Origin: a virus
Virus record (IMG/VR): IMGVR_UViG_3300008219_000139
Location: 1 to 20,549 of that record
Strand: one strand, 5' to 3'
Length of the DNA: 20,549 nucleotides
The notes under the pieces are model-generated. The model saw only the letters and a program-made list of their open reading frames with translations. It was not told where the DNA came from and searched no databases. A program made the position numbers and the translations under genes. Positions 2,626-18,914 of the stretch are shown one piece after another (the stretch's first letter is position 1; each line of letters starts with the position of its first letter).

Positions 2626-5600
2626 ATGACTGGATTCACATTATCATTTCATACTAGTGCAATAACTGGTATTACGGGACCAACTGGTGCAACAGGTGCA
2701 GAACCTACAGGTGCTACTGGCCCAACGGGCCCAACTGGTGCAACAGGTGCAACTGGTGCGACTGGTACAACTGGTGCAACTGGAATGACTATTGTTGGTA
2801 CTTTCTTTGATGATATTGAAACAGATGGTTATTGGGGAATTAGATTTGGAGTACCAAATAGAGATGATATAGATGAAATACAAGCAATACCCAGAGGAGC
2901 ATTTACTGGCCCTTCGGGTATGGTTACTGGAACTACTGCGGATGTTCTTACTTCTGGTGCTGGTTTTACCACTATATACGAACCAACAGAAATTACATGG
3001 GCATCAAGCAGTGTTCATGGTCCTAGTGGCGCAACTTTATCTTTCCGAACAATAGGTCCCAGTGGTGATTTAAGATTATATCAAGACGATGCAAATAGAT
3101 TAGGTACAGGTGCAACATATTGGACACTTGGTATTAGTGGTCCCGATGCAGGAAGTGTTTATGGAACTGTTGTTGGTAGTACTGGTAATATTGGTTACTT
3201 GGTTGATAAAAAGAATGTTAAAAATGCTTTTGGTCTTACTTTTACAGATACAGTTACTTCAGAAGGAACAATAGGATCAACATGGGGAACTATCAGTACT
3301 CGATATGTAAATCACGCAGAATTTTATCAAGTACACGGGAACCCACATACAGGAACGACTTCTCCGTTTACAATTAAAACAAAAGACGGAAATGTTCATC
3401 ACATTTATGCTCCGTTTGCTCTTTCTGAAATTACTGTAGATTATCCAACAAACAAAGCACCAATTGCATATGCTCCAGAATGGATCGACCTATCAGGAAC
3501 AACTGCTGAATATGGAGAAAGTGTAAATGTAACTCTTATTATTGATGGTGGTCCTGGCGGTATATCTTTCTCGAATAAATTTTACTTCAATGAAGATATG
3601 AAATTTACTTCGGGAAGGGATATTATTAATTGTTTAACTTATGATAAGGGAAATAGTTGGTTCTGTACTGTTTCTGGATTTGGTTATAATCTTCCTAGTG
3701 ATGATGATGGAACTGTTTCTTATGGGGCTTGTTGTGATGCCCCACCTGAAGGAACTGGTAGTTGTACTGAATTTGTATTAGAAAGCGAATGTCCATATGA
3801 GTTTTTTGAAAATATGTTATGTACTAGTACTCCATGTGGGGCAGAGCCCGCAGTTGGTTCTTGTTGTATTAATACCGATGACAACGGTGATCCGTTCTGT
3901 GTTGACTCCATGCCTGATGGATCTCCCGTATTACAATCTTTCTGTGAAGCATTTGGTGGTGTTTTTAGAACTGTTCCATGTGATCCAAATTATCCATGTC
4001 AAGATCCATGCGATCCTGATATAGGCGAAGTGGGAGCATGTTGTAGATTTGCAGACAATGATCAGTTTATTACTTGTAGTGATCTTGTTTCTGCTTTTGA
4101 GTGTTCAGAAAACCCAGAAGGTCAATATGGTATCTATCAAGGAGATGGAACATTTTGTTTTGATATTGATTGTTGTGACTCACTTGATCATAGTGGTGCG
4201 TGTTGTTGTTCTGATGGCGAATGTGTGGGTGGAACAAATCCAACAGATTGTTTATCAGGAACTTCCTGTTTTACAGGATCGGGAGTATATATGGGACATG
4301 GTTCTGTATGTCCAGATGATGGCGGTGATATAAACTGTGAGTGTAATGAGAATCCAGAAGATATGGGTATGTGTTGTTGTCCTGATTGTATGCCAGTTCC
4401 TGCCTGCTACCCATCTCTGGGTCAGGGTGCGTGTAAGTATCTTGGTGGAGATTGGCTGCAAGGAGGGGATTGTGCTGATCCAGACGATTGTGATTTACCA
4501 GTTATACCTACGGGAGCGTGTTGTCATGGGCCCGAGGGGTCAATAACCTGTTCTTCAGTCACAGAAGATCAATGTAATATAGACAGTGGTTCCTATCTTG
4601 GAGATGATACAATATGTGAAGGTCAATGCGACGAGATTGCAGCGTGTTGTAGTTGGGAAGGGGATTGTATTGATGATCTGACCTATGATGACTGTTTCAA
4701 TATCGCCGGCGGGGATTCATGGTCGTATGGGAATATGTGCGTAGACGATTATAAGTGTCCACCCCCACCCACAGGAGCATGTTGTTATAATATTGATGGA
4801 AGTTGTGCGGGATCCCATCATGATTATGAATCATGTACTAATATTCCTGGCTGGCCCCCTGGCAGTCACACATATCAAGGTGATGGTACATGTTGTGGAG
4901 AAGACGAGTGTGATAATCATGTAGATTGTTCTACGGAACTTTATGGAGGATGTTGTATATACAAAGGTGATGGTTCTGAAGCCGAAGCACGAAGCGATCT
5001 AACCGAAGAGGATTGTGCTAAATTAAACGATCCTTGTTGTCAAGATCCAGCGCCAGACATTCACAGGGAGGGCTGGCCTAGTAATAAAGAATGTTGGAGA
5101 TGTCATTGGAAGGGATTGTTGGAGTGTGGAATCGTTGGCCAGCCCCAATCTGTAGTTTCTTGCCTAAATTTTAGATGTCCACCACACATGACACTCTGCA
5201 CGCCAACTGGAGAATGGGATCCTGGCGGAGATGTACGAAAACATCCAATTGCCTGTAAGAATTATTGGTTACTTTGGTGTCCAATGGATGGTGATGACTT
5301 CCTCGGTGTTGATGGTTTGCCTGGATGGCAATGTGATGGTGCGAAGAATATGAATGATTTTTATGATTATTATTTAAACTTTTTCATCGAGGAAACCAAT
5401 GACCAAACCTGTGGCGCATATTGTATGGGGACTCCACCATATTGTTATCCAGATGATGATGGTGCGGGGTGCGAATGGCCATATGGTGTAGATAACGATA
5501 ATTACGATGACTGGTTTAGGCTACACTTCGGACATGCTTCTAACAATCCAGGCGATTGGGAATTTAGTCAAGGTGATTGCATTCCCAACCATGAAGGATA

Positions 5601-8600
5601 TAATAAATTCTGTCAAATTGCTTGTTGTGGGAAACCACAATCAGGAGGAGGAGGCACCGACGCAGGAGTAAATTGTGACTGGAACGGAGGAACTGGAGTT
5701 CCTTGCCCAAGTGCTTTTTGGGCGAACAGGCATGATAGGGCGCGGTGTTGTGCGGAATTTGGTCCAGTCGAGGGGCCAGGCCTCATTGGGAGTTATTATT
5801 TACCCCCTGAAGAAGGCGGCGGACTCAAAGAAGGTTGTGAAAATTATTGTGGTAGATTTTCCACCGGCGGATGTGGCGGCTCTGAACATAATTCTGCTTG
5901 TTGGTCGGCTGGTGGTTGGCCTGGACCAGATTTCCACGAATGTGTGGACTGTCATGTGTGTCGGGAGTGCGATGGCACGGGGCTTGCCAACTGCGATGGT
6001 GACTTTGGGTGGCCACCACCATGCGATATATGGGAAGAGCCAGGTTGTCAAGGATCGGCAACTGGCAACTGTTATGACTGTCCTTGTATTGCTGGTTGTT
6101 GTTGTAATCAAGGCGAAACTCCACCTTGCAGCACTGTTGTTGCAGAGACACCAGTGGGAGTATGTTGTCAGGTAACTTATGATGTAGATGACGGCGTAGT
6201 ACCTACTTGTCGTACTACGACTCGTGAGGACTGCCCTGGCGGTGACTGCATTCTTGCGTTCCCTCGTGGAAACTGGAACCCGCTTGGAGGTCAGTTTGTT
6301 GGGTGCGGGGACATGCAGGGCGAGGATTCAGGTCACCCCACCTGCGGGGGCCTCTACGAAGAACATCATTGGCGTAGTCAGTGTTTCCCGTGGATTGTTC
6401 ACCACTCCGATCAAATGGGGGGTGTGTGTGACGATTTCCCCATAAATGTACCTCCTTGTGATGCCGAAGGGGACCCCCTCACGGCGTGTGGCCATTGCGA
6501 GTGCCCAAACCCGCATGATCCAGCATATCAGTGTGATGAAGAGAAATGTTGTGGTTGTGATCTCCCGCAGCGGTACTGCTTCAATTATTGCACTTATATA
6601 TGGGCGCACGGGGAAATCATAGAGAGAAGATGTTACAAGTCGATGGACCCGTCGTATCAGGGCGGCCTCGCAGGCGGCGGCATATCGATGGGCTTGATGA
6701 GGGAAATCCTTGGTGACTTTCAGGATCAGTACGACGAGGCATGGGTGGAACAATGCGGTCCTGCTCCATTGATGAACGCCGAGGGAGGGGGCTGCGATAT
6801 CGAGGAGGGGAACCTCGCAAAATGTTATCTGCGGAAGCCCAATCCCATCCCTGGCTACCAGTCTTGCGGTGGGCTCGACTGGCCAGTCGCGGGCCCTGAT
6901 GAGACATTCATGTGTAGTTGGGGTCTTCATATGTCCCCACAGCAGGCCTGCTGCATTAATTGTGCGATGTGGTTGTCTAATGAACAAGAGGGTGGTGTCA
7001 TTCATCAAGAATCGCCCATTACAATTATTGATCATGGAGATATATCTGCTACAATAGAAGGTAAGATTGATAATATGTCTTCGTTTATTAAAAGTCATAT
7101 AAATGAAAATGCTATATTTCCAGGCGATCTTGAAAGAGAAGCGTTATCAAAAGTGACAAGCAAATTATCTAGAGAAGCAAAGTATATGGTGGGTGGAAGA
7201 ACACCTTCTCGTTCACTTCGCCATTCAAATGATCCACATTTCCATCCAGTAATGCCTGCAAGTAAAGTACGCTTGTCAGGTATAATATGTTCTGATACTG
7301 GTTGTGAGAAAATAAATGATTATAATGATTATGTTTTGAAATATGGTTTACCAGAAAATGATGACGAATTTAAGAGATTTGTTCCAGCGATTCCAGATTC
7401 TGTTTATTCATTCCCAGATGGAGACAAAGAACATTTCTTGAAAATGCTTTTGGTTGGTAGTCATGGAATAAACAGATCTATGAACTTTGCAGAAATGTCT
7501 TCACTTCATGGAACATCAATAGAAAAGTTTAAATTGATGGCTCTTGCATATTCTGTTGAAAAGACTTTAACTGGATCAAATCCAGCAACAAAATATCCGT
7601 GGTTCCCTGTAAATAAGAATACAATACAAGCAGATAAAAATTATTGTCATTGTAATAGTACACATGACGATTATGAAATTGAGATTGCTGCGGTAAGATT
7701 CTTGGGAGAACATAATATTTCTAATCCTCTAGGAAACGGTAATTGTTTAGAGATTTCTGGTCCAAAGAATACAACACATCTTATTGGTACTGCTCTTGGT
7801 GGATCTGTGTCGGTGGGTGAATCTTGTGGTCGTTTCAATATAGAAAATTTACATAACTTAGAGTCTAAACCTATGTCTGATTCTAGTATAACAAAATCGA
7901 AGTCTTCTGGAAATATTGGAAGTTGTATGACACCAATGGGTGTTGTGATTGATTGTGAAGAAGATTATTGTAAAGAAGTATTGAATGGATCTTGGAGAGA
8001 GAAACTTTCGTTAAGAGATTCATATGAAGAAAGAAAACCATCAAACGAAACAACTGTTCATACCTATAAAAGTTCTGGTACATCAGAACAAAAAGGAGAA
8101 TTAACAACTATTAATACTTGTTGTCCGTGTGTGGATTGTTTATTGGATGCAATATGTGAACACGAATCGGGTGGTTGTAAATGTGAAAATGCTGATGGTT
8201 CTCCCGTTGTTAATCCTGACGATCCAAAACAATCATGTTCTGGTATTTGTGATTCCAATAAACCGTTGAATGATCCATATTGGAATGAGGTTGTGAACTG
8301 CAAGGGAGAGACATGTGTATCTAAGGGAACAAAAGACACAGATTGTAGAAAAAGAAAAGAACATTGTTGGTCGTGTGGACCAATGCAAATTAAAAAGGAC
8401 TTCTTTGATGATGCAAAATGGTCTTGCAGGGTTGAACCAAAATGTTGTGAACTCAAGAATTATAATTGGGGAAGTTTCTGTGATGGTAGTATGACTTGTA
8501 AAGAACTAAAAAGAATAAGCAAACTTGTTGCTGAATGTTATTATCGTCGATATACAAGAAACGGTGATTGTCAGTGTGCAGGAACTTGTACAGGAGAATG

Positions 8601-8859
8601 TGATGTTGTAAACACAGATTGTGATGAAGGAACTGGATGTTATACTTGTGAAGAATTGGCAAGAATGCATAACGGTGGTTCAGAATGGTGTAATAACCCT
8701 TCACTTACTGATGAATATGCTGATCTGGTGGCTGAGGCTTGGTGTGAACTGAGCGAAGAATGTCAAGATTGTTGTGAAGATGAAGGTTTGTGTAATTGCG
8801 ACCGTGTTATTGGAAATGAAGAAAAATTAAACCCACTTAGAGCAGATGAAGAGAAATAG
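2626..8859 (+). CDS. Giant Cys-rich fibre-like protein with C-terminal i-type lysozyme domain, 2077 aa
   Basis: Five regions can be read in order. Residues 13-53 are a collagen-like series of Gly-x-Thr triplets. Residues 54-366 are Gly/Thr/Ser-rich, probably beta-structured, nearly Cys-free, and look like a phage fibre module. Residues 367-1230 hold about ten modules starting G-x-C-C, each with 5-8 Cys, and the dense Cys continues to about 1446. Residues 1449-1831 are Cys-poor and more charged. Residues 1832-2065 carry the signature of i-type (destabilase) lysozymes: a C-E-H-E-S-G-G-C segment with Glu1847 as candidate catalytic acid, S-C-G-P-M-Q-I-K at 1916-1923, and A-R-M-H-N-G-G around His2015. 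By eye count the protein has about 170 Cys. I infer a virion appendage that binds the cell and cuts peptidoglycan during entry. In T4 the comparable virion lysozyme is part of baseplate gp5, a different fold. The lysozyme call is strong; the virion location is inferred from neighbours and fibre-like domains. Confidence 0.85.
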   Translation: MTGFTLSFHTSAITGITGPTGATGAEPTGATGPTGPTGATGATGATGTTGATGMTIVGTFFDDIETDGYWGIRFGVPNRDDIDEIQAIPRGAFTGPSGMVTGTTADVLTSGAGFTTIYEPTEITWASSSVHGPSGATLSFRTIGPSGDLRLYQDDANRLGTGATYWTLGISGPDAGSVYGTVVGSTGNIGYLVDKKNVKNAFGLTFTDTVTSEGTIGSTWGTISTRYVNHAEFYQVHGNPHTGTTSPFTIKTKDGNVHHIYAPFALSEITVDYPTNKAPIAYAPEWIDLSGTTAEYGESVNVTLIIDGGPGGISFSNKFYFNEDMKFTSGRDIINCLTYDKGNSWFCTVSGFGYNLPSDDDGTVSYGACCDAPPEGTGSCTEFVLESECPYEFFENMLCTSTPCGAEPAVGSCCINTDDNGDPFCVDSMPDGSPVLQSFCEAFGGVFRTVPCDPNYPCQDPCDPDIGEVGACCRFADNDQFITCSDLVSAFECSENPEGQYGIYQGDGTFCFDIDCCDSLDHSGACCCSDGECVGGTNPTDCLSGTSCFTGSGVYMGHGSVCPDDGGDINCECNENPEDMGMCCCPDCMPVPACYPSLGQGACKYLGGDWLQGGDCADPDDCDLPVIPTGACCHGPEGSITCSSVTEDQCNIDSGSYLGDDTICEGQCDEIAACCSWEGDCIDDLTYDDCFNIAGGDSWSYGNMCVDDYKCPPPPTGACCYNIDGSCAGSHHDYESCTNIPGWPPGSHTYQGDGTCCGEDECDNHVDCSTELYGGCCIYKGDGSEAEARSDLTEEDCAKLNDPCCQDPAPDIHREGWPSNKECWRCHWKGLLECGIVGQPQSVVSCLNFRCPPHMTLCTPTGEWDPGGDVRKHPIACKNYWLLWCPMDGDDFLGVDGLPGWQCDGAKNMNDFYDYYLNFFIEETNDQTCGAYCMGTPPYCYPDDDGAGCEWPYGVDNDNYDDWFRLHFGHASNNPGDWEFSQGDCIPNHEGYNKFCQIACCGKPQSGGGGTDAGVNCDWNGGTGVPCPSAFWANRHDRARCCAEFGPVEGPGLIGSYYLPPEEGGGLKEGCENYCGRFSTGGCGGSEHNSACWSAGGWPGPDFHECVDCHVCRECDGTGLANCDGDFGWPPPCDIWEEPGCQGSATGNCYDCPCIAGCCCNQGETPPCSTVVAETPVGVCCQVTYDVDDGVVPTCRTTTREDCPGGDCILAFPRGNWNPLGGQFVGCGDMQGEDSGHPTCGGLYEEHHWRSQCFPWIVHHSDQMGGVCDDFPINVPPCDAEGDPLTACGHCECPNPHDPAYQCDEEKCCGCDLPQRYCFNYCTYIWAHGEIIERRCYKSMDPSYQGGLAGGGISMGLMREILGDFQDQYDEAWVEQCGPAPLMNAEGGGCDIEEGNLAKCYLRKPNPIPGYQSCGGLDWPVAGPDETFMCSWGLHMSPQQACCINCAMWLSNEQEGGVIHQESPITIIDHGDISATIEGKIDNMSSFIKSHINENAIFPGDLEREALSKVTSKLSREAKYMVGGRTPSRSLRHSNDPHFHPVMPASKVRLSGIICSDTGCEKINDYNDYVLKYGLPENDDEFKRFVPAIPDSVYSFPDGDKEHFLKMLLVGSHGINRSMNFAEMSSLHGTSIEKFKLMALAYSVEKTLTGSNPATKYPWFPVNKNTIQADKNYCHCNSTHDDYEIEIAAVRFLGEHNISNPLGNGNCLEISGPKNTTHLIGTALGGSVSVGESCGRFNIENLHNLESKPMSDSSITKSKSSGNIGSCMTPMGVVIDCEEDYCKEVLNGSWREKLSLRDSYEERKPSNETTVHTYKSSGTSEQKGELTTINTCCPCVDCLLDAICEHESGGCKCENADGSPVVNPDDPKQSCSGICDSNKPLNDPYWNEVVNCKGETCVSKGTKDTDCRKRKEHCWSCGPMQIKKDFFDDAKWSCRVEPKCCELKNYNWGSFCDGSMTCKELKRISKLVAECYYRRYTRNGDCQCAGTCTGECDVVNTDCDEGTGCYTCEELARMHNGGSEWCNNPSLTDEYADLVAEAWCELSEECQDCCEDEGLCNCDRVIGNEEKLNPLRADEEK
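2662..2784 (+). repeat. Collagen-like Gly-x-Thr triplet repeats (9-nt DNA periodicity)
   Basis: The DNA repeats GGTGCAACT-like 9-mers and encodes G-P-T, G-A-T, G-T-T and G-I-T triplets over residues 13-53 of the 2077-aa protein, with one interruption (Ala-Glu-Pro). Such Thr-rich collagen-like tracts are known in phage fibres and in Bacillus spore-surface BclA, where they form trimeric rods. A trimeric stalk is therefore the natural inference. Confidence 0.9.
3724..6306 (+). repeat. Array of about ten diverged G-x-C-C cysteine modules
   Basis: Residues 367 to about 1227 of the 2077-aa protein repeat a pattern: G-x-C-C, a short acidic stretch with G-x-C, a further Cys after about seven residues, an aromatic-Gly element (Y/W-x-G-x-G), then one or two closing Cys. 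Module length varies from about 38 to more than 100 residues, and the modules after residue 800 are heavily expanded. There is little DNA identity between copies, so the array is old or under diversifying selection rather than a recent tandem duplication. I recall similar G-A-C-C repeats in secreted proteins of planctomycetes and other bacteria, but I cannot name a formal family. Confidence 0.75.
5650..6990 (+). other. GC-rich island inside the 2077-aa gene
   Basis: The bases rise in GC through this stretch. Row 6661-6720 has about 36 of 60 G/C, while the row at 7081-7140 has roughly a third. The drop near 6990 coincides with the end of the dense Cys region at residue 1446. Codon choice changes with it, with many GGC, CCC, CTC and GCG codons absent on either side. 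The reading frame is uninterrupted. Confidence 0.65.
8119..8820 (+). other. i-type (destabilase) lysozyme domain, C-terminus of the 2077-aa protein
   Basis: i-type lysozymes cleave the beta-1,4 bond between N-acetylmuramic acid and N-acetylglucosamine and are best known from invertebrates. Several family hallmarks are seen in order here: Cys-x-x-Cys then I-C-x-x-E-S-G-x-C near residue 1847, S-C-G-P-x-Q-I-K followed by an aromatic-Asp stretch (1916-1932), a helix with Y-x-R-R-Y, and C-x-x-x-A-R-x-H-N-G-G followed by Cys (to 2022). The usual domain is about 120 residues. This one spans about 230, with extra Cys-bearing loops, notably about 68 residues between E-S-G-G and S-C-G instead of a few dozen or fewer. 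Glu1847 fits the catalytic acid. The second catalytic Asp cannot be assigned by eye (Asp1857 or Asp1865 are candidates). Confidence 0.88.
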
Positions 8860-8893
8860 AGATAGATATATTTGAACCAATACAGGAAAAAAT

Positions 8894-11800
8894 ATGAGTA
8901 TCCAGTTTAGAACACGATCCAAAGGATGGTCAATCGATCCAACATTGCTACAAGGTGCATGTTGTAAAGATGGTGAGTGTCTTGGTCCTTTTTATAATCC
9001 ATTTGAATGTGCAGCAGCAGATGGGGAGTGGATGGGAAATGGTATAAACTGCAACGATATTGATTGTGCAGAAGGTAGCCGAGCCGCTTCTGTTGTGGGT
9101 TCGTGTTGTATTAATGGTTTTTGTTATGCAATTGATGAGGAGAAATGTAATTGTAGGGGTGGAGTATATCTAGGAACAGGTATTGATTGTGTTCAAGCAG
9201 ATTGTTGTGGAGTTAATTTACCATCAAATACTAGTACTTCCACAATGGCATGTTGTTATGATGGTGGAACTTGTAGAGATTTATCTCCATGTGAATGTTT
9301 AGAAACAAAGGGTGTTCCAAGAGGACCTGGTACGAGTTGTTCAACACATGATTGTCAGTTAACAGGTCTTACTGCTTCTTACCGTGGTGCATGTTGTATA
9401 GATGGATATTGTAAAGGACCAACAGGAGAATCTCACGAAACATATGCTCAGTATGGTTATACTGCTGGTGATTGTGTAGTACTTGGTGGTATTTTTGGTG
9501 GGTCGGGAAGTACTTGTGGAAGTAATCATGAAACTATAAGTGGTATTACTTGGCCTTGTTCCTTCCCAAGAGGATCATGTTGTTTTGGAACTGCTCCATA
9601 TGATGGTGTTTTATATTGTGGTGATGGTCATACTTGTGGAAGTTGTTTGAATCCAGTGGGAGCAGGTGGTAGTGGTGGACAGAACTGGGTTAGGGGTTTA
9701 ACCTGTGGTGATGTTATTGACGATCATGGTGGTTGGTGGGATGGAACCAGATGTTATGTAGAAGAATTTGAAACAGGATCTTGTTGTGTTCCAAATTATT
9801 ATGAATCTTCTGATGGTAGTAGAACTTTTATTGAAAACTATAATTGTCTTGATGATATCACAATTAACAACTGTGAAAGGTTGGGAGGACTCTTTAAAAG
9901 TTATACTGAAAATGTAGGTGTTTCTGGCCCACCTGAAATTAAAAGATATCTTCAGCGAGGTCAACATCCAGGCACATGTCGTGATAAACAGGATATATCT
10001 ACATTAACAGAACAAGACATGATTCGTGCATATGCAGGAATATACAAGATAAGTGGAACAAATATTTGGCCTCAAAATGGTGGGGTGCCAGGCCCGATGG
10101 ACCATGAGGGCTTTTCTCAGTTGTACTCGATAGGAGACGGCCCAGAGCGAGATAAACCAAAAAATGTCAATTTCATTCAACTCAATTATAAAGAGACTGG
10201 ACACCCCACGGGGTATGGTTGTCCTTCTTCAGATCCATCAGGAGAAGGATGTGAAAGAGACTTTAGAGATTTTTATGAATTATGTAAATCTATCGGAAGT
10301 GGAAAAATACGAATACAGCATGTTAGTGATCAACCATTCTCAACAGATGAGTATGCTTCTGACCTCACACCAGGCGATGGGCGAAAGGTCTGGGCAGAGT
10401 GGAAATATAATGATGTGAAAAATCCATTGGGACATACGAATGTATTTAGTTTTCAAGATTTAGACTATATTGACGGATCTAATGATGGTGAAATTTTCTT
10501 TGAAACTTCTGCTTGGTGTAGATGTAGAAACTGTCCAGGCTGGGGTAATTGTGAAGGAGATCCAGGCTGTAATTGCGATTTGGGCCACCCACACTATTGT
10601 TCGCCCTATTGTGGCTGCCCCTCGGCCGAGGGAACAGGAACGGATGGAGCGAATTGTTGTACTCGTCAACCAGCGTGGTACTACCATGTTTATATTATAC
10701 CAGATGAGGGGGGTATACCGTTTGATGAACTTCGATGTGCGGATGGTTTAGATTGTTGTGAAAGATATGAAGAAGACGAAGAAACAAGATGTTCCCAAGG
10801 ACCAGAAGGCGCATGTTGTTCTTTTGACAACGATGGCAAATATATTAATTGTGTTCAAAGTACACTTCTGGATTGTGATTTATTGGGTCAAAGCAATCCT
10901 TCTATTAATACATTTTTCCACGAAGAAGAAGAATGTAGTGAAGAAATTTGTGTTGATGAGGGGGTTGGTTCTGATAGAAATATAGCAAGATCTTGCTGTA
11001 GGTGGAAAAAAAGTAATGGAAAATATCTTGGGTGTTTTAGTCAAGAAGATTGCTCTCCTAGACAAGATGAAATTATTAGACATTTTAATGAACCGTGTTC
11101 TTCTCTGAAGGATAAGTGTCGATCTATAGAAATTGGAGCGTCTGTAAACAAATCCGTAAAGACTTCTAATAGATCATTAATAAGTAATGTAAACATAAAT
11201 TCAACAAATAAATGTTTAGATTCTAGAGATACCAACTATAAAATAAACAAGGATTCAGAGGTTCTTGATTATACAACTTCTATTACCAACACATTACCAA
11301 GTTCTATTGCAACGAAAATCACAGATCCTCATATGTTTGATTGTGAAACTTGTGGATCTTCGTTCAACAGAAACAGAGGAAATTGTTTTTGGCAATCCAC
11401 ATTATTAGAAAATAGAACTGCTGAAGAATGTTTAGAAATTGGTGGAGTATTTGATGGTTGTTTAGGAAGACCATACGAGACAGTCTTTGAATCGTTGGGT
11501 GGAAGGCGATCAGAAAACATTCCTGACGCAACAGCACAAAAAAACGAAAGTAATTTCAATAGATCACAAACTACTGGAACTTCTGGAACTTTAGGTGCTT
11601 GTTGTATAGCACAGAATGCAACAGATGTAACAAAAAGATCATGTCAAATAACAACTGATGCTGGTTGTTGGAATTTACAAGAAACTCTTAGTTTACCAAC
11701 CACATGGTTAGGACCAGGAACTGTTTGTGGTGATTGGAATTCGACCTATGGTTATCAAGAATGTATGGCTAATACATTTGCTTGTTGTTGCTCGGATGAA

Positions 11801-14800
11801 AGCAACACAATAATTGCAAAATATAGTGATGATTCAACACGATTGTTCTCTTGTTTGCAGATAAGTGAGTATGAACAAACTCAATATGGTTCCTGTGATA
11901 ATAGCGGTCAAATAGGGTCTGATGGTTTGGTGTGTGGTGGTTCTGGAACTGTTGGTAAGTTGGGTTCAAATTGTGTAGATAATTATTCGGGTGAGTGGGA
12001 TAAAGATTCAACAGACGGAATAGCAGACAATTGTATGCTTGGTGATAATCTTCGTGGAGCATGTTGTAGTTGTGTTGGTTGGTGTGATGGTGAATTTAAT
12101 ACAAACACCGAAAAGGATTATAGACCAGGACCACCTTGGGCAGAGTCCGAAGTTGCCTGTGGCTTTGGTACTTCGAGTGATCCGCTATCAACAGCATATC
12201 CCATGTGTTATGATTCATTAACAGAAGACGAGTGTTTAGCAAAAACAGAATATTGGAGAACACACCCAACAGATGCTAAACCAGATGTTGAATTTACATG
12301 GTTAGGACCAAAATCTAAATGTACTCATTCTGGTTTTGAAAATTATGGTGATTATGAAACAGTAGTATCAGTTGATCCAGATGGTGTTTCAAATAACTTT
12401 AGTGGATGTCTTGCTGGTTGGGCGTGTGGATCGAAGGATACTTCACCATTCTATTGTGGTGGTTCCAACGATGAACCAGACTGTAAAGGATTCCCAGGCT
12501 ATGCAGTAAATGGTGTGTCTGAAACTTGGATTAAGTGGAAATCGCCACACAATATATTTAATAATAATTGTGTAGGTAGGGATGGAATATTAAATGAAAG
12601 TTGTTTAGAAGATTCAGCGTCTTGGATAGTTAGAAACTTCTACGCAACTGATGGTTGTTATGGTGATTCTCCCTTTGAAGATTCATATCCAGTTTTGACT
12701 AATAATAATATTGATGCTGCTGGTTGTCCTTTCTGTAATGCTGCTAGTATATCACCGTCTGATTGGAATAGTTTAGATTATGCTAATTTAAGAAATTCAT
12801 ATTTCCGTTTGGGTTTTGATCATACAACTGGACCAGCAATGTGTGACGAACTTGGTAGGACATCTTATATTGATTTGTCTGATGGAACTACAGTTTCGTC
12901 ATCAGGATCATTTGGTTCTTGCTGTATAAACGGAACATGTCATAGATGGCCAGAAAAAGTTTGTGTAGAAGAACTTGGTGGTGTTTATATTAAAGATGGT
13001 GTTTGTAATGGTGTGTCATGTCCAACAAATTCTGGATTGTGTTTACTGTGTTCAGGACATTCAGCCGTTCCTGAAAATATAAAAGATGAACTTCCATGTT
13101 GTGCTGGATGGATAGACGATCAAACTAATTGTGATAAAATTGGAGGGAAGTGGTTCCCCACGGGAATTGAAAAATTAGAAGAGTTCTGTTCTAGTAATCA
13201 ATGTAATAATAAGAAAAATTTCAATATATTAGAAAGTGATGCCGTTGTTGGTGGATCTTCTACGATAAAATCTACTACTTTGGTTTCCGACGATTCGGTT
13301 AGTAAAGATTTTGCAACAGAAGAACCGCATTCAAACTGGAATCCTTGTTTATGTGGATGTTGTTTGGATGGTAATACCTGTTATGATACCGAAAGTTGGT
13401 ATGAGTGCGAAGCAGCGGGCGGAAACTGTTGGCATCATGGAACTGGTTGTGAAGGGGGAGGGTGTGAATCTTCAACAGAAAATGAAACAACACCCAATTC
13501 TAGAAACGAAGTTAATTATGAATATACAGAGTCGTGGATGCCTCCAAGTGGTAATATTAAGTATGAAAAATTCATCGATGGATGGCAATTAGGATTCAAG
13601 GATTCTATGGTTCCGTTCTTAGGATTTAAAAATATATTTGAAGCACCAATTTTAAATGATCATTCTCAATGTCCATTTGCGGCAATACCAAATCAAGTAT
13701 ATTACAAAACTTCCGATAGTGGAATTCCTTTTCCTCTAGATCCAACCAGTTTCCAGTATATACAAGGAAGGGGAGATAATAAACTTCTTATAGGTAAAGA
13801 TCCAAGGGTAAGTAGAAAATATTGGAATTCTATTAAGAATGATGTTAAAGAACTTTGGTTGACAAGATATTATCCAACACCAGACAATTCTTTGAGTTCA
13901 ACAAATATTTTAGAACCATATTTCATTAGTAAATTACATACCAGAACAGTTCCAATGTTAAAAACTTTGGTAATAAATCCCGCAAGGTATGGAAATGGTA
14001 GAAAGGTTCCAAACTTTCCTGATTCTTGGGGTAGTTGTTCTTTACATTCCTGTAATAATTGGAAATCTTCTTACGGTAGTGGATATCATCTTTCTAATGA
14101 CTTAACAGCAATAAATTCAACATTAGAGACTCTTGTTGCTGCGGATTCTAGTATTGATTCTGGAATAAGTTACTTAAAACTTCATAATTATTCAAAACTA
14201 AAGAATCTTTATATTCACAACAATTCATTATCAATTCTAGACCTTAAGAACTTAAAATCTTTAGAAAATCTTTGGGTTCAAAATAATAATTTAGGAAATT
14301 CTTCTGCTATAATTGCAAATTCTGGTTTAATGAAACAGGATAGTTTACAAGTAGATGAATATTCTTCAACCATAAAAACAATATATGCACAGAACAATAA
14401 ACTAAAAACACTTAGTGATAAGAAAAATATTAGTCTTCCTAAATTGGTAGTTTTGGATATTTCTCATAATAATATTAGTAATCTTTCGTTTAATGCTCCA
14501 TCATTAAAATATCTCAACGCAAGTGGTTGTAATCTTTCTGGTTCGGTAAACATAGGATCACCGAATTCTCTAGAAGAAATAATATTTGATTCTGTTTCGT
14601 TGAATAGTTTTACTATAGGAACCAAAAATAACAGACCAATAAATCTTAGATCACTAAGAATATCAGGATCAAATCTTGCTGTTCTAAATTGTGGTATTGA
14701 AAAGACAAATAAATATTCTGGCAACATGATGAATAATTTAGAATATATTAGTTTATCAAACAACCCAAGATTAAGAACCTTAATTTTACCATCACCGTCA

Positions 14801-15169
14801 AATTCTGAATCGGGTGTTGTTGGAAGATATCCCCGCTATATTGATGTTAATTCAACTTTATTAGATGACAGTTTCTTAGAACAAGCAGCATTTTCTCCCA
14901 ATGGGTATCCTGATGGACATTTATTAGAAGTTTCTCTTGTAGGAACTCGTATTTCAAAAGAAGCGATTGATAGATTAGTAGAGTTGTGGGATTCACATGA
15001 CAATAAACATATTTTAGTGGCTGGTTATAGAGGATTTGAAGATCCTGTCACTGATGTTTCGCGGGAAACGGATGCACGAACTCAGGGTAGTGAATCAATA
15101 ATAAGTAGAACAAGAAGAACTTCTGATGGATCTACTAGAAGTTCTGGTGGAATGTCAAGTAATTACTAA
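8894..15169 (+). CDS. Giant Cys-rich protein with C-terminal leucine-rich repeats, 2091 aa
   Basis: The start is ATG 8894 with AGGA at 8884-8887, six nt upstream; the stop is TAA just before 15170. The G-x-C-C modules begin only 21 residues in. They recur about a dozen times up to roughly residue 1530, many in the compact 38-45-residue form, separated by longer inserts (for example 330-590 and 700-880). Residues 1530-1735 are a Cys-poor, aromatic-rich linker domain. Residues 1740-2035 are leucine-rich repeats with typical L-x-x-L-x-[LI]-x-x-N-x-[LI] cores. The tail (2050-2091) is Ser/Thr/Arg/Gly-rich and ends in Tyr. There is no signal peptide, membrane segment or enzyme motif. Its length and plan resemble the 2077-aa neighbour, so the two look like partners or distant paralogues with different C-terminal effectors. 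I infer a virion surface protein whose LRR domain binds a host ligand. Confidence 0.82.
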   Translation: MSIQFRTRSKGWSIDPTLLQGACCKDGECLGPFYNPFECAAADGEWMGNGINCNDIDCAEGSRAASVVGSCCINGFCYAIDEEKCNCRGGVYLGTGIDCVQADCCGVNLPSNTSTSTMACCYDGGTCRDLSPCECLETKGVPRGPGTSCSTHDCQLTGLTASYRGACCIDGYCKGPTGESHETYAQYGYTAGDCVVLGGIFGGSGSTCGSNHETISGITWPCSFPRGSCCFGTAPYDGVLYCGDGHTCGSCLNPVGAGGSGGQNWVRGLTCGDVIDDHGGWWDGTRCYVEEFETGSCCVPNYYESSDGSRTFIENYNCLDDITINNCERLGGLFKSYTENVGVSGPPEIKRYLQRGQHPGTCRDKQDISTLTEQDMIRAYAGIYKISGTNIWPQNGGVPGPMDHEGFSQLYSIGDGPERDKPKNVNFIQLNYKETGHPTGYGCPSSDPSGEGCERDFRDFYELCKSIGSGKIRIQHVSDQPFSTDEYASDLTPGDGRKVWAEWKYNDVKNPLGHTNVFSFQDLDYIDGSNDGEIFFETSAWCRCRNCPGWGNCEGDPGCNCDLGHPHYCSPYCGCPSAEGTGTDGANCCTRQPAWYYHVYIIPDEGGIPFDELRCADGLDCCERYEEDEETRCSQGPEGACCSFDNDGKYINCVQSTLLDCDLLGQSNPSINTFFHEEEECSEEICVDEGVGSDRNIARSCCRWKKSNGKYLGCFSQEDCSPRQDEIIRHFNEPCSSLKDKCRSIEIGASVNKSVKTSNRSLISNVNINSTNKCLDSRDTNYKINKDSEVLDYTTSITNTLPSSIATKITDPHMFDCETCGSSFNRNRGNCFWQSTLLENRTAEECLEIGGVFDGCLGRPYETVFESLGGRRSENIPDATAQKNESNFNRSQTTGTSGTLGACCIAQNATDVTKRSCQITTDAGCWNLQETLSLPTTWLGPGTVCGDWNSTYGYQECMANTFACCCSDESNTIIAKYSDDSTRLFSCLQISEYEQTQYGSCDNSGQIGSDGLVCGGSGTVGKLGSNCVDNYSGEWDKDSTDGIADNCMLGDNLRGACCSCVGWCDGEFNTNTEKDYRPGPPWAESEVACGFGTSSDPLSTAYPMCYDSLTEDECLAKTEYWRTHPTDAKPDVEFTWLGPKSKCTHSGFENYGDYETVVSVDPDGVSNNFSGCLAGWACGSKDTSPFYCGGSNDEPDCKGFPGYAVNGVSETWIKWKSPHNIFNNNCVGRDGILNESCLEDSASWIVRNFYATDGCYGDSPFEDSYPVLTNNNIDAAGCPFCNAASISPSDWNSLDYANLRNSYFRLGFDHTTGPAMCDELGRTSYIDLSDGTTVSSSGSFGSCCINGTCHRWPEKVCVEELGGVYIKDGVCNGVSCPTNSGLCLLCSGHSAVPENIKDELPCCAGWIDDQTNCDKIGGKWFPTGIEKLEEFCSSNQCNNKKNFNILESDAVVGGSSTIKSTTLVSDDSVSKDFATEEPHSNWNPCLCGCCLDGNTCYDTESWYECEAAGGNCWHHGTGCEGGGCESSTENETTPNSRNEVNYEYTESWMPPSGNIKYEKFIDGWQLGFKDSMVPFLGFKNIFEAPILNDHSQCPFAAIPNQVYYKTSDSGIPFPLDPTSFQYIQGRGDNKLLIGKDPRVSRKYWNSIKNDVKELWLTRYYPTPDNSLSSTNILEPYFISKLHTRTVPMLKTLVINPARYGNGRKVPNFPDSWGSCSLHSCNNWKSSYGSGYHLSNDLTAINSTLETLVAADSSIDSGISYLKLHNYSKLKNLYIHNNSLSILDLKNLKSLENLWVQNNNLGNSSAIIANSGLMKQDSLQVDEYSSTIKTIYAQNNKLKTLSDKKNISLPKLVVLDISHNNISNLSFNAPSLKYLNASGCNLSGSVNIGSPNSLEEIIFDSVSLNSFTIGTKNNRPINLRSLRISGSNLAVLNCGIEKTNKYSGNMMNNLEYISLSNNPRLRTLILPSPSNSESGVVGRYPRYIDVNSTLLDDSFLEQAAFSPNGYPDGHLLEVSLVGTRISKEAIDRLVELWDSHDNKHILVAGYRGFEDPVTDVSRETDARTQGSESIISRTRRTSDGSTRSSGGMSSNY
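8954..13470 (+). repeat. Array of about a dozen G-x-C-C cysteine modules in the 2091-aa gene
   Basis: Modules are seen from residue 21 (G-A-C-C) to residue 1489 (C-G-C-C) and its closing Cys near 1530. The compact form is clearest at the N-terminus and at the end: G-x-C-C, G-x-C, a Cys after about seven residues, G-G-x-[WYF]-x-G-x-G, C, then C four to five residues later. They share no long DNA identity with each other or with 3724-6306. Confidence 0.75.
14111..15000 (+). other. Leucine-rich-repeat domain, C-terminus of the 2091-aa protein
   Basis: LRR cores are seen at residues 1769 (L-K-N-L-Y-I-H-N-N), 1827 (I-K-T-I-Y-A-Q-N-N), 1851 (L-V-V-L-D-I-S-H-N-N), 1949 (L-E-Y-I-S-L-S-N-N) and 2010 (L-L-E-V-S-L-V-G-T), with weaker copies between. 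Spacing is irregular at 20-30 residues. LRR solenoids are protein- or glycan-binding platforms; the ligand is unknown. The DNA here is AT-rich like the rest of the phage. Confidence 0.85.
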
Positions 15170-15235: not shown

Positions 15236-15706
15236 ATGTCTGAAGAAAAGAAATCTATTAGTGAAAAAATTAAAATGGCTAAGAGTTATGCACAAGCAAT
15301 AATTTCTAGAGGAATTACAAACAAAAAAACAGATAAACTTACAAAACAATTACGAGTAATTAGTTGTTTTGGTGATGGTGGTGAACTTATTCCTTGTGAA
15401 TATTTAGCAAAGAGTAAAACTGATGACACTAAGAATATTTGTGGTGGCTGTGGATGTGGTGATAGAAAAGGAACTTGGCTACAAACAGAAGGCGAAGAAT
15501 ATAGTAAACTAGATTACCCCAATTTAAATTGTCCCCTTCAAATGCCTGGGTTCACTAATTATGAACAAAGTGCGATTGATGAAGCAGAAGAACCAGTTAC
15601 CAGAAGATATTATATCGAAGAAATGGAACAGGATAGGGTTGAAAAGGTTGAGGTTTCTTTACCAGAAAAACCAGAAAAACCAAAACCAAAAGAAAGCAAA
15701 GAATAG
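15236..15706 (+). CDS. Small protein with CxxCxC cluster, 156 aa (unknown function)
   Basis: The start is ATG 15236 with GGAG six nt upstream; the stop is TAG 15704-15706. The N-terminal 40 residues are Lys-rich and probably helical. The middle holds six Cys (44, 54, 69, 72, 74, 99), including an I-C-G-G-C-G-C-G cluster followed by D-R-K-G-T-W-L and, later, N-C-P-L-Q-M-P-G-F. The C-terminus (from about 140) is a Lys/Pro/Glu low-complexity tail. The Cys spacing would suit zinc or iron-sulfur binding or a redox role, but no family is recognised. It sits between the Cys-rich cassette and gp13, has its own promoter-like sequence, and is followed by a hairpin that covers the gp13 ribosome binding site. 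It could assist assembly of the Cys-rich proteins, but nothing shows this directly. Confidence 0.75.
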   Translation: MSEEKKSISEKIKMAKSYAQAIISRGITNKKTDKLTKQLRVISCFGDGGELIPCEYLAKSKTDDTKNICGGCGCGDRKGTWLQTEGEEYSKLDYPNLNCPLQMPGFTNYEQSAIDEAEEPVTRRYYIEEMEQDRVEKVEVSLPEKPEKPKPKESKE

Positions 15707-15771: not shown

Positions 15772-16572
15772 ATGTCCAATCCAAATTCAGTTGATACTCT
15801 TATAGATTATGCTTTTAGGCGACTTGGTTCGCCTGTTGTTGATATTAATGTAGATAGGCAACAAGCAGTAGAAAGAGTAGATGATGCGTTGGATATGTTT
15901 GCAGAAAGACACTTTGACGGTGTTGAGAGACACTACTATAAACATTCTGTAACTAGTGATGATATAACTAATGGGTATATTAACACCAGTGGTTTAACTG
16001 CTGGTGCGGGCTATACTGCTGCTCCAGGCGGATCAAATATATTAGCAGTAACAAAGGTTGTTCCTTTTGGTGGTAATGTAAATAGTATGTTTAATATTAA
16101 ATATCAAATGTCGTTAAATGATTATTTTGGAATAAACAGAAATCTTCATTATAGTTCTGCTCTTGGTATGGCAAGTTATGATTCAACAAAACGATTTATA
16201 AGTTTGGTTCAACAAATGTTTGATCCTGAAAAAATGATTCGTTTTAATAAAGTATCAAATAAGTTATTTATTGATATGGATTGGAGTGCGGATGTTGATG
16301 CTGGTGATATTTTAGTAATTGAAGCATATTCAAAAATAAATGCAAATGCTAATCCTGAAATATTTAATGATAAACTTTTAAAAGAATATGTGACAGCATT
16401 ACTCAAACGACAATGGGGTTCTAATTTATCAAAATTTGAAGGGGTACAGTTGCCAGGCGGTGTTACAATTCGAGGAGCAGAATTATTTACTGAAGCAAAC
16501 GAAGAAGTTATAAGAATTGAAGAAAAGATTCAACTGGAATATGAGTTACCAATCGATTTTATGATTGGATAG
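15772..16572 (+). CDS. 13: T4-like neck protein gp13, 266 aa
   Basis: T4 gp13 helps form the neck at the portal vertex after DNA packaging, allowing the tail to join. The N-terminus matches the family in marine T4-like phages: an L-I-D-Y-x-x-R-R-L-G-x-P-V-V-x-I-N-V-D segment followed by a helix with E-R-V-D-D-A-L-D and the H-Y-Y-K-H strand. The T4 protein is about 309 aa; this shorter form is usual for marine relatives. The start is set by AAGGAG at 15758-15763, which lies inside a hairpin. The stop TAG is four nt before the gp14 ATG. The order gp13-gp14-gp15-gp16-gp17 confirms the assignment. Confidence 0.9.
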   Translation: MSNPNSVDTLIDYAFRRLGSPVVDINVDRQQAVERVDDALDMFAERHFDGVERHYYKHSVTSDDITNGYINTSGLTAGAGYTAAPGGSNILAVTKVVPFGGNVNSMFNIKYQMSLNDYFGINRNLHYSSALGMASYDSTKRFISLVQQMFDPEKMIRFNKVSNKLFIDMDWSADVDAGDILVIEAYSKINANANPEIFNDKLLKEYVTALLKRQWGSNLSKFEGVQLPGGVTIRGAELFTEANEEVIRIEEKIQLEYELPIDFMIG

Positions 16573-16576
16573 TAAT

Positions 16577-17500
16577 ATGGCTAGAAATAAGTATTTTCGA
16601 GACTATAGCGGTGAGCAAGACGCCGTAGAAGATCTTACCATTGAAGTTATAAAAACAATGGGTAGGGATATGATATACATTCCTCGCGAAATTGTTACAA
16701 AAGATAAACTTTTTGGAGAAGACACATTATCAAAATTTGATGATGGTTATCATCTAGAAATGTATGTTCAGTCGGTTGATGGGTTTGAGGGCGAAGGTGA
16801 TATTATATCACGGTATGGTTTAGAGATACGAGATAGAATGGAATTAATCGTATCACGAAAAAGATTTACAGAAGATGTAACCACATATGAAGGAATTGAT
16901 CGACCAAGAGAAGGCGATTTAGTTTATTTTCCATTAAGTGGTACTTTGTTTGAGATTAATTTTGTGGAACACGAAAACCCATTTTATCAATTGGGCGCCC
17001 TTTATACTTACAGATTATCTTGTGAAGTCTTCAGTTATTCGGAAGAACAAGAATTTGATACTGGAATTACTGTTATCGATAAGGTAGAAGATGATAGAAA
17101 AGAATATGCAATTAAACTTACTTTGGGCAATAAACTCAGCACTGCAACAGATTATATTCTTGGAGAAAGTATATTCCAAGTATCTGGAGCAACTGGTGGT
17201 ATATACTCGGATGCTAGTGTTACTGGTGTTGTTGTTGATTGGGATGCCACAAATAAGGCTCTAACGGTTGGTGATCTTTCTGGAACTCTTTCTACTGGAA
17301 GCACTACAGATAGCGTTATGGGAACTCAGTCTACAGCAGAATATGAACTTACTAGCACTACGGAAACAACAACAATTATTATTAAGGAACCAGAAGATGG
17401 TGACATCATGGGTGATAATGAAGATATAGAATTCATTAGTGATTCAGATAATATCTTTGACTTTACAGAGACAGATCCTTTCTCAGAGGGTAACTATTAA
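16577..17500 (+). CDS. 14: T4-like neck protein gp14, 307 aa
   Basis: gp14 acts with gp13 in head completion and neck formation. I chose ATG 16577 (M-A-R-N-K-Y-F), four nt after the gp13 stop, rather than the in-frame TTG at 16565, which overlaps gp13 and lacks a ribosome binding site. The family pattern is visible: E-D-L-T-I-E-V-I-K-x-x-G-x-D-M-x-Y-I-P-R near residues 17-38, and later the P-F-Y-Q-L-G and Y-R-L-S-C-E-V-F-x-Y-S segments. From about residue 195 to 275 there is a Gly/Thr/Ser-rich, probably beta-structured insertion absent from T4 gp14 (about 256 aa) and, as I recall, common in marine relatives. The acidic tail ends at TAA 17498-17500, which shares one base with the gp15 ATG. It has no clear Shine-Dalgarno, so translation is probably coupled to gp13. 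Confidence 0.9.
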   Translation: MARNKYFRDYSGEQDAVEDLTIEVIKTMGRDMIYIPREIVTKDKLFGEDTLSKFDDGYHLEMYVQSVDGFEGEGDIISRYGLEIRDRMELIVSRKRFTEDVTTYEGIDRPREGDLVYFPLSGTLFEINFVEHENPFYQLGALYTYRLSCEVFSYSEEQEFDTGITVIDKVEDDRKEYAIKLTLGNKLSTATDYILGESIFQVSGATGGIYSDASVTGVVVDWDATNKALTVGDLSGTLSTGSTTDSVMGTQSTAEYELTSTTETTTIIIKEPEDGDIMGDNEDIEFISDSDNIFDFTETDPFSEGNY

Positions 17501-18411
17501 TGTTTACTTCATATTACAATGAATCTATAAGAAAAGTAGTAGTTGCTTTTGGTTCTCTGTTTAATAATATACAGTTAAAGAAAACGAACAGTAGTGGTGT
17601 TGTTGAATACCATAGGGTTCCTTTATCATATGGTCCAAAAGAGAAATTCTTAAGAAGAATAGAACAGCAAAGTTCTATATCAAATTCAACAAAGGTTTTA
17701 ATTACACTTCCAATATTAGGATTTAATATTACAGATATTTCTTATGATGGTGGTAGAAAAAGAAATACAATTCAGAGAAGAAGAAATCATGTTGCGGGTG
17801 GATCTGCTGAGTATATGAGGTATAACTACACTGAAGTTCCATATAATTTTAATATATCGTTATATGGTTTTGTTAGACACATGAACGATTCTCTTCAGAT
17901 AATGGAACAAATTTTACCATACTTCACACCTGAGTTTAATGTTACTATTAATTTTAATGATGTTCATAAGAAGGTTGATATTCCTATTATATTAAATACA
18001 GTATCAATGGAAGAAGACTATGAAGGTGAGTTTGATACCAGAAGAAACATAACAACTGAGTTTTCTTTTACAGTTAAAGGAAATGTATATGGACCGATTA
18101 AGAAAAATCATGTTATTGCATATACAGAAACAACATTCTTTAATTTGTTTGATGAACAATGGTCGTCGAGTGGGCCAACTGGTGCTATGTCTAGAATTGA
18201 TGTCGGTATTAGTGGTGCTTCTTTAGATACTACACTTGGAATTGCTGGAGCGTCTATTAGTGATTACACAACATATACAAATATATATTCTGCTGGTACA
18301 AGTGGTACAACAGGTGGTGATCCTGGCGGAACATATGGATGGACACATATAGATACTTATGGTAATACTTATTATGGTGCATATAGATATCCACCTGCAC
18401 CAAATGAATAA
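17500..18411 (+). CDS. 15: T4-like tail sheath stabiliser and completion protein gp15, 303 aa
   Basis: gp15 forms the ring that caps the tail tube and sheath and joins the tail to the neck. Matches to T4 gp15 include the start F-x-x-Y-Y-N-x-S-I-R, then L-F-N-N-I-Q-L-K-K, R-V-P-L-S-Y-G-P-K-E-K-F near residue 45, and M-E-Q-I-L-P-Y-F-T-P-E-F-N near residue 138. The T4 protein is 272 aa. This one has an extra C-terminal tail rich in Gly, Thr, Ser and Tyr (about 225-303) that may be flexible or beta-structured. The ATG overlaps the gp14 stop by one base (TAATG), and AGAGGG lies nine nt upstream, giving tight translational coupling. Confidence 0.92.
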   Translation: MFTSYYNESIRKVVVAFGSLFNNIQLKKTNSSGVVEYHRVPLSYGPKEKFLRRIEQQSSISNSTKVLITLPILGFNITDISYDGGRKRNTIQRRRNHVAGGSAEYMRYNYTEVPYNFNISLYGFVRHMNDSLQIMEQILPYFTPEFNVTINFNDVHKKVDIPIILNTVSMEEDYEGEFDTRRNITTEFSFTVKGNVYGPIKKNHVIAYTETTFFNLFDEQWSSSGPTGAMSRIDVGISGASLDTTLGIAGASISDYTTYTNIYSAGTSGTTGGDPGGTYGWTHIDTYGNTYYGAYRYPPAPNE

Positions 18412-18422
18412 TGGGGAATTGA

Positions 18423-18914
18423 ATGAGCAATAAAAAAACAACAAATGAAAAAATATCAGAAGCATTAGATGTTGAGTATGATTCGGATGAATCTATTATT
18501 AAAAAAGAAGACAATCTTCCTGTTGTAAAAAAAGAAACAAACAAAGACTTACCGAAGGACTATGATGAGGTCAGGGGTAATTTAAAAGATCTAATTGATA
18601 CTGGAAAAAGTGCAATCGATGGAATTTTGAATGTTGCCTTAGACAGCGATTCTCCAAGAGCATATGAAGTTGCTGCTCAAATGATAAAAACTGTATCTGA
18701 AGCAAATAAAGATTTGATTGGTTTACACAAGCAAATGAAGGACATTAATAAAGAGGAAGTCACTATCAACACAAACACAACAAATGCTTTGTATGTTGGG
18801 TCTACTTCTGATCTTCAAGACTTGATTAATCAATCTAGAAGTGCCAAAAAAGTACTTACTCAAAAGTATAATGATATTATTGATGTTGAAGCGGAGGAAG
18901 TAGATGACGACTAA
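18423..18914 (+). CDS. 16: Small terminase subunit gp16, 163 aa
   Basis: gp16 forms a ring that recognises phage DNA and regulates the large terminase at the start of packaging. The length is nearly that of T4 gp16 (164 aa). Order and motifs agree: D-Y-D-E-V-R-x-N-L, then a long helix with D-S-D-S-P-R-A-Y-E-V near residue 78, the second helix ending L-I-G-L-H-K-Q-M-K-D-I, and the Y-V-G-S-T-S-D-L segment near residue 122. The N-terminal 35 residues are charged and variable. GGGGAA at 18413-18418 sits five nt before the ATG. The gene overlaps gp17 by 11 nt. Confidence 0.93.
   Translation: MSNKKTTNEKISEALDVEYDSDESIIKKEDNLPVVKKETNKDLPKDYDEVRGNLKDLIDTGKSAIDGILNVALDSDSPRAYEVAAQMIKTVSEANKDLIGLHKQMKDINKEEVTINTNTTNALYVGSTSDLQDLINQSRSAKKVLTQKYNDIIDVEAEEVDDD

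Follow-up and report, generated by a model that had tools for sequence, protein, structure and literature searches.

The window analyzed here is the whole stretch of a virus record, 20,549 bases long, and carries a single run of plus-strand genes: four large open reading frames (ORFs), mostly Cys rich, followed by a 156-amino-acid (aa) ORF and a T4-like block. Its features are as follows.

2626 to 8859, plus strand: giant fiber-type protein of 2,077 aa (ORF; PHROG tail-fiber match; Pfam Collagen below cut-off)
2665 to 2784, plus strand: collagen-like Gly-X-Y repeat, residues 14 to 53 (PHROG tail-fiber families, Pfam Collagen)
8119 to 8766, plus strand: core of an i-type-like lysozyme domain, residues 1832 to 2047, 216 aa with 30 Cys (alignment with the domains of two other phage contigs, L001 and L033; hhalign; shuffles)
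8155 to 8178, plus strand: C-E-H-E-S-G-G-C, residues 1844 to 1851, the C-x-x-E-S block with the candidate general acid Glu1847 (8164 to 8166)
8359 to 8364, plus strand: Glu1912-His1913, with the acid nearest to the place of catalytic Asp30
8368 to 8394, plus strand: W-S-C-G-P-M-Q-I-K, residues 1915 to 1923, the GH22i signature beta-hairpin (definition in PMC2976769)
8536 to 8553, plus strand: C-Y-Y-R-R-Y, residues 1971 to 1976, matching the animal i-type Y-M-K-R-Y
8647 to 8691, plus strand: C-E-E-L-A-R-M-H-N-G-G-S-E-W-C, residues 2008 to 2022, a C-x4-R-M-H-N-G-G-x3-C block (animal counterpart C-x3-A-R-x-H-N-G-G-P-x-G-C)
8894 to 15169, plus strand: giant protein of 2,091 aa that starts MSIQFR, as do its counterparts in the clade (ORF, Pfam)
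15236 to 15706, plus strand: 156-aa clade-marker protein (64% identity to the L001 counterpart over 121 aa)
15772 to 20549, plus strand: T4-like head-tail and packaging block (PHROGs; T4 gp13-gp17 order)

The ORF at 2626 to 8859 runs for 2,077 codons without interruption and encodes, in order, a collagen-like Gly-X-Y start, about 1,100 aa of Cys modules, a Cys-poor region, and the i-type-like lysozyme domain at the C terminus. The collagen-like start matches PHROG tail-fiber families (best E value, 9.7e-8), and Pfam Collagen scores 19.7 bits on the protein, under its cut-off of 27.2. Between 3550 and 7200, as at other loci of the clade, tandem Cys modules (GACC..G.C...C..GG.Y.GD.T.C....C) extend over hundreds of residues, and such arrays in virion-type proteins are unusual for products of the bacterial cytoplasm. 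The MSIQFR protein downstream is a conserved neighbor of the lysozyme and is likely an adhesin. It combines Cys modules with leucine-rich repeats near its C-terminal end (14372 to 14491, residues 1827 to 1866; Pfam LRR_4, 8e-8), whereas its L033 counterpart has a weak Lcl_C match in their place (E value, 0.006), and thus the C-terminal domain of the adhesin appears to have been swapped among phages.

The block at 15772 to 20549 encodes a head-tail adaptor, a head closure protein, a sheath stabilizer, and the small and large terminase subunits. At about 57% identity to gp17 of marine cyanophages, the terminase points to a T4-like myovirus, probably a marine one. Near the head-closure or sheath-stabilizer genes, some members of the clade carry a free-standing ORF with a GIY-YIG-like start (EEKYGFVYIWYDRKHKRYYIGCHWG; L030 at 12205, L035 at 4584, and L036 at 12339) that is possibly a homing endonuclease.

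A first-pass annotation proposed that residues 1832 to 2065 of the fiber-type protein form an i-type lysozyme domain about twice the usual length, with extra Cys loops. Those residues correspond exactly to 8119 to 8820, contain 34 Cys in 234 residues (14.5%), and include all four hallmark blocks in the order given. The length was fairly described, as the 216-aa core is 1.7 to 1.9 times as long as animal i-type domains (116 to 124 aa). The excess is due to Cys-rich insertions, and in the alignment large ones sit between Glu1847 and the hairpin.

Direct scans of the domain against Pfam, PHROG, and NCBIfam gave no match. Moreover, the Pfam Destabilase family (PF05497), against which the annotation had proposed a search, exceeded its curated cut-off for none of the window, L001, and L033 domains, while leech destabilase, the positive control, scored 103.7 bits. 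Because the window domain lies below Pfam detection, homology had to be sought by profile-profile comparison and through an intermediate sequence. The proposed comparison with i-type lysozymes in the PDB fared better: the L033 domain, searched against 177,635 PDB sequences, had the leech destabilase lysozyme 8bbu as its sole significant match (E value, 4.1e-4; next, 0.55), and an alignment of the three phage domains retrieved only an 8bbu chain (E value, 0.0028). Furthermore, hhalign aligned the three-phage profile to a clam/leech i-type profile with 97.1% probability (E value, 4.7e-11; score, 69.5); the i-type profile comprised three PDB sequences only, and its clam and leech letters were verified against the PDB chains. 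When columns were shuffled 200 times with the Cys-rich composition kept, the score fell to 13.3 ± 2.5 (maximum, 22.2), and the reversed profile scored 15.7. An hhalign score of 55.5 likewise compared with a mean of 13.5 in 300 column shuffles of the same composition (standard deviation, 2.9; maximum, 29.4). Hen c-type lysozyme scored 13.5 against the phage profile (probability, 0.3%), and a c-type identity was rejected. A T4-type (GH24) identity was also rejected, as the domain matched no Pfam phage lysozyme and no PHROG.

The significant profile alignment takes in the hairpin as well as the Y-x-R-x-Y helix and the HNGG block. By itself, the N-terminal CxxES block was not significant (score, 12.7; shuffles, 10.8 ± 2.1); it is kept in all three phages, in the right order, and lines up with the CxxES of animals. 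The three phages all keep Glu-Ser, W-S-C-G-P-x-Q, Y-x-R-x-Y, and R-M-H-N-G-G, and the L001 and L033 domains are 41 to 49% identical to that of the window. Given the PDB match of L033 and a profile score far above the shuffle and c-type controls, there is good support for homology to i-type lysozymes, as the first-pass annotation had it. Because the domain misses the PF05497 cut-off and raises a question over Asp30, we do not class it with the standard members of that family; it is a divergent homolog that probably works like one. AlphaFold2 models for the domains of the window and L001, made from two-sequence input, had a mean pLDDT of 34 to 35, too poor for a fold search, and we infer both the fold and its disulfide pairing.

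A search of IMG/VR proteins with the domain returned one relative, L001, at 39% identity. The 156-aa marker served as a query for syntenic contigs and retrieved 19 contigs of one phage clade, including the third copy of the domain, in L033. A tblastn search of 50,697 isolate phage records with the window domain and its homologs returned no relative, a viral motif scan found L001 only plus one chance match, and a scan with the hairpin motif found L001 only plus chance matches. PF05497 was absent from all 795 genomes sampled from Bacteroidota and Pseudomonadota, an absence that is only suggestive as no positive control matched there. Five genotypes of the clade for which the region is covered lack the domain (L030/L031, L032, L036/L039, L037/L038, and L040/L042), such that about three of eight genotypes have it. 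Thus, the domain is not essential and behaves as an optional, exchangeable module.

The phage structural setting recognized at the outset extends to the homologs, and the domain is encoded among virion structural genes in all three contigs. The L001 contig (40,855 bases) is T4-like, with baseplate wedge proteins upstream, a tail-fiber-type protein and collagen-like fibers, and then Cys-module proteins followed by a 313-aa lysozyme protein, a 664-aa protein, the MSIQFR protein, and the marker. In L033, a Cys-module protein precedes a 546-aa lysozyme protein, the MSIQFR protein, the marker, and gp13-gp17. The L033 domain occupies about residues 22 to 256 of its protein. The common order is therefore collagen-fiber and/or Cys-module genes, lysozyme, MSIQFR protein, and 156-aa protein, except for the one extra gene between lysozyme and MSIQFR protein in L001, and gp13-gp17 come next in the two contigs long enough to reach that region. 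Placement of the domain at a fiber tip holds in part: the window domain is fused to the end of a collagen-like fiber protein, but in L001 and L033 it is a separate gene, and thus the fusion, which the annotation had proposed to look for in other phages, is peculiar to the window. We note that the sequence just upstream of the window domain is similar to the beginning of the stand-alone genes and that the ORF ends soon after the domain. In L001, seven FG-GAP repeats (Pfam FG-GAP_2, 2e-127) lie within a Cys-module protein at 4843 to 9921, an integrin-like propeller that neighbors the lysozyme gene. A His-containing segment and a GDSGS motif in the 664-aa protein (10859 to 12853) recall trypsin-like proteases. 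That protein had no Pfam or PHROG match, and a 708-aa protein of L032 (6016 to 8142), which like it is tagged at the C terminus, had no PDB match.

The tag is shared by 14 ORFs of the fiber cluster, a count that includes near-identical copies on different contigs. Each ends 2 to 7 residues after G-[EDR]-C-x-[WYL]-[MIV]-x-C-x(2-5)-C-P-Y-x-x-C, with an approximate consensus of G-E-C-x-W-M-x-C-x(2-5)-C-P-Y-P-x-C. Carriers are found in L026, L030 to L032, L035 to L038, L040, L042, and the L001 contig (ORFs 30106 to 35184 and 36122 to 38116), and a search of isolate phages did not find it. It is possibly an assembly or sorting signal, and its presence at the ends of several proteins suggests a shared fate in assembly. 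The 546-aa lysozyme protein of L033 ends in the tag; the 2,077-aa protein of the window does not. Moreover, the stand-alone forms in L001 and L033 have no N-terminal hydrophobic segment suited to an exported endolysin. Together, the shared tag and the absence of a signal-peptide-like start indirectly favor a virion component over an endolysin.

In the lysozyme of Tapes japonica, Glu18 is the general acid, Asp30 is the general base, and Ser35 and Gln40 also belong to the site (PMC2976769). Glu1847, the candidate acid of the first-pass annotation, aligns with Glu18 and is invariant in the three phages. Hairpin residues Ser1916 and Gln1921 correspond to Ser35 and Gln40, and the S, C, G, P, Q, and K of the hairpin are likewise invariant. 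The nearby Asp partner that had been anticipated is not conserved at its aligned position: Asp30, which precedes the hairpin Ser by five residues, aligns with Lys1911 in the window. Acids do occur near that place in all three phages: Glu1912 at Ser-4 in the window and, at Ser-3, where the window has His1913, a Glu in L001 and an Asp in L033. GH23 lysozymes act although conservation of their Asp97 is only partial, and no general base is listed for the lambda-type enzyme (PMC2976769). Thus, loss of Asp30 need not abolish catalysis.

We favor, with a probability of roughly 0.6, a reading that makes the domain a diverged relative of animal GH22i lysozymes, rich in disulfides, which a marine T4-like clade carries as an exchangeable payload of its fiber/adhesin gene cluster. 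As part of the virion, it would act locally on host peptidoglycan while the phage adsorbs and enters, cleaving the glycan strands with Glu1847 as the general acid and with the second acid either relocated or absent. The 30 to 34 Cys count against this reading, as pairing them into disulfides would be difficult in a reducing cytoplasm. So do the lack of a direct Pfam Destabilase match, the missing acid at the aligned Asp30 position, and the five genotypes without the domain. The Cys might pair following release, or an oxidizing route might come from the host or the phage. We speculate, and hold it doubtful, that the exchangeable virion enzyme of this clade is an i-type lysozyme of animal style, locked by disulfides that would form only after release into oxidizing seawater; it would then stay inactive inside the cell that makes it and become active once outside.

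The question over Asp30 makes a catalytically dead i-type fold the main rival, one that serves as a glycan- or peptidoglycan-binding module and grips the wall or surface sugars without cutting. Besides the lack of a second acid at its aligned position, the domain sits among fiber/adhesin-type genes and is fused to one in the window, and the cleft would be reshaped by the large Cys insertions that separate Glu1847 from the hairpin. Against this rival, the general acid Glu and the hairpin Ser and Gln are invariant in three diverged phages, and the GH23 and lambda-type precedents (PMC2976769) weaken the argument from Asp30. We regard a binding-only role as rather unlikely, and cutting by a virion enzyme remains our preferred reading. 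Overall, the domain probably aids the virus in cutting or gripping the cell wall of bacteria.

Other explanations are less probable still. The domain might be an endolysin that moved into the late structural operon and became fused to a fiber protein in the window, as its stand-alone genes in L001 and L033 and the apparent signal peptide of the destabilase-like Callevirus lysozyme would allow. That account is improbable given the lack of a signal-peptide-like start, the Cys modules after the domain, the fiber-cluster tag in L033, and the fusion to a collagen-like protein; moreover, no holin-like gene was recognized beside the domain in the general annotation of the region. It is very improbable that the domain is a destabilase-type isopeptidase that cuts epsilon-(gamma-Glu)-Lys or similar cross-links and not glycan; most animal i-type enzymes have been studied as muramidases. 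The closest solved relative is nonetheless leech destabilase, for which isopeptidase and muramidase activities have both been reported (PMC4654880). Finally, chance resemblance within a Cys-rich structural protein could account for the missing Pfam match and the insignificance of the N-terminal block by itself, but it is strongly disfavored, the least probable of all, by the shuffled and reversed controls, the PDB match of L033, and the presence in three diverged phages of all four blocks in an unchanged order.

The i-type lysozymes are known mainly as animal enzymes of defense and digestion, and clams and leeches direct theirs at bacteria. A Cys-rich relative in a phage structural operon would add a further lysozyme class to the virion-associated lysins, and the three phage sequences bear on the origin of the animal enzymes. 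They also raise the question of how folding is achieved, in a bacterium under phage infection, by a protein with at least 30 Cys. The first-pass annotation knew of no described phage virion lysozyme of this class. Destabilase-like phage lysozymes as such, recorded as annotated or predicted proteins rather than as established virion parts, are not new: Callevirus Calle_1 carries a gene annotated "lysozyme (Destabilise-like protein)," and in PhaLP 2.0 "destabilase" domains are noted for some predicted phage lysins (PMC13237592). The main text of PhaLP 2.0 makes a single remark, with no sequences, fiber fusion, Cys-rich form, or virion role (PMC13237592), and in the open-access literature searched we found no account of a phage fiber cluster that includes a Cys-rich i-type domain resembling those of animals.

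The lysozyme of the Callevirus Cellulophaga phages Calle_1 and phi38:1, known from annotation, has i-type lysozymes as its best PDB matches (E value, 0.005) and shares the R-x-HNGG and Y-x-x-RY blocks with the window domain. It differs in being 143 aa long and Cys poor (2 Cys), with a signal peptide-like start and a weak Pfam SLT match, and it matched the phage-domain profile poorly (score, 21.4). We rejected it as a close relative and consider it a distant parallel. The gene for this i-type relative lies at 3731 to 4162 of L020, and Microcystis phage Mel-JY01 encodes a distant relative of it (E value, 4e-4).

Among i-type lysozymes (GH22i, PF05497), the closest solved structures are Hirudo destabilase (8bbu/8bbw) and then the clam lysozymes 4pj2, 3ab6, and 2dqa. 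The phage domains and these enzymes have in common, in the same order, CxxC..CxxES(G)C, SCGPxQIKxx[YF][WF]x[DE], Y-x-R-x-Y, and C-x4-R-x-HNGG-x3-C, and L033 additionally retains the i-type ending HNGGP..G...TLGY. Unlike the animal domains, the phage domain is 1.7 to 1.9 times as long, has 30 or more Cys, has no acid at the exact Asp30 position, falls below Pfam detection, and is encoded by a phage in fusion with or beside fiber proteins. The T4 gp5 tail lysozyme (GH24) differs in another way, being a hub gene product with an unrelated motif set, whereas the window domain has no Pfam phage lysozyme match and belongs to a fiber cluster. Like gp5 and other virion-associated lysins, however, it is encoded in a T4-like virion gene cluster and is proposed to cut peptidoglycan locally at entry.
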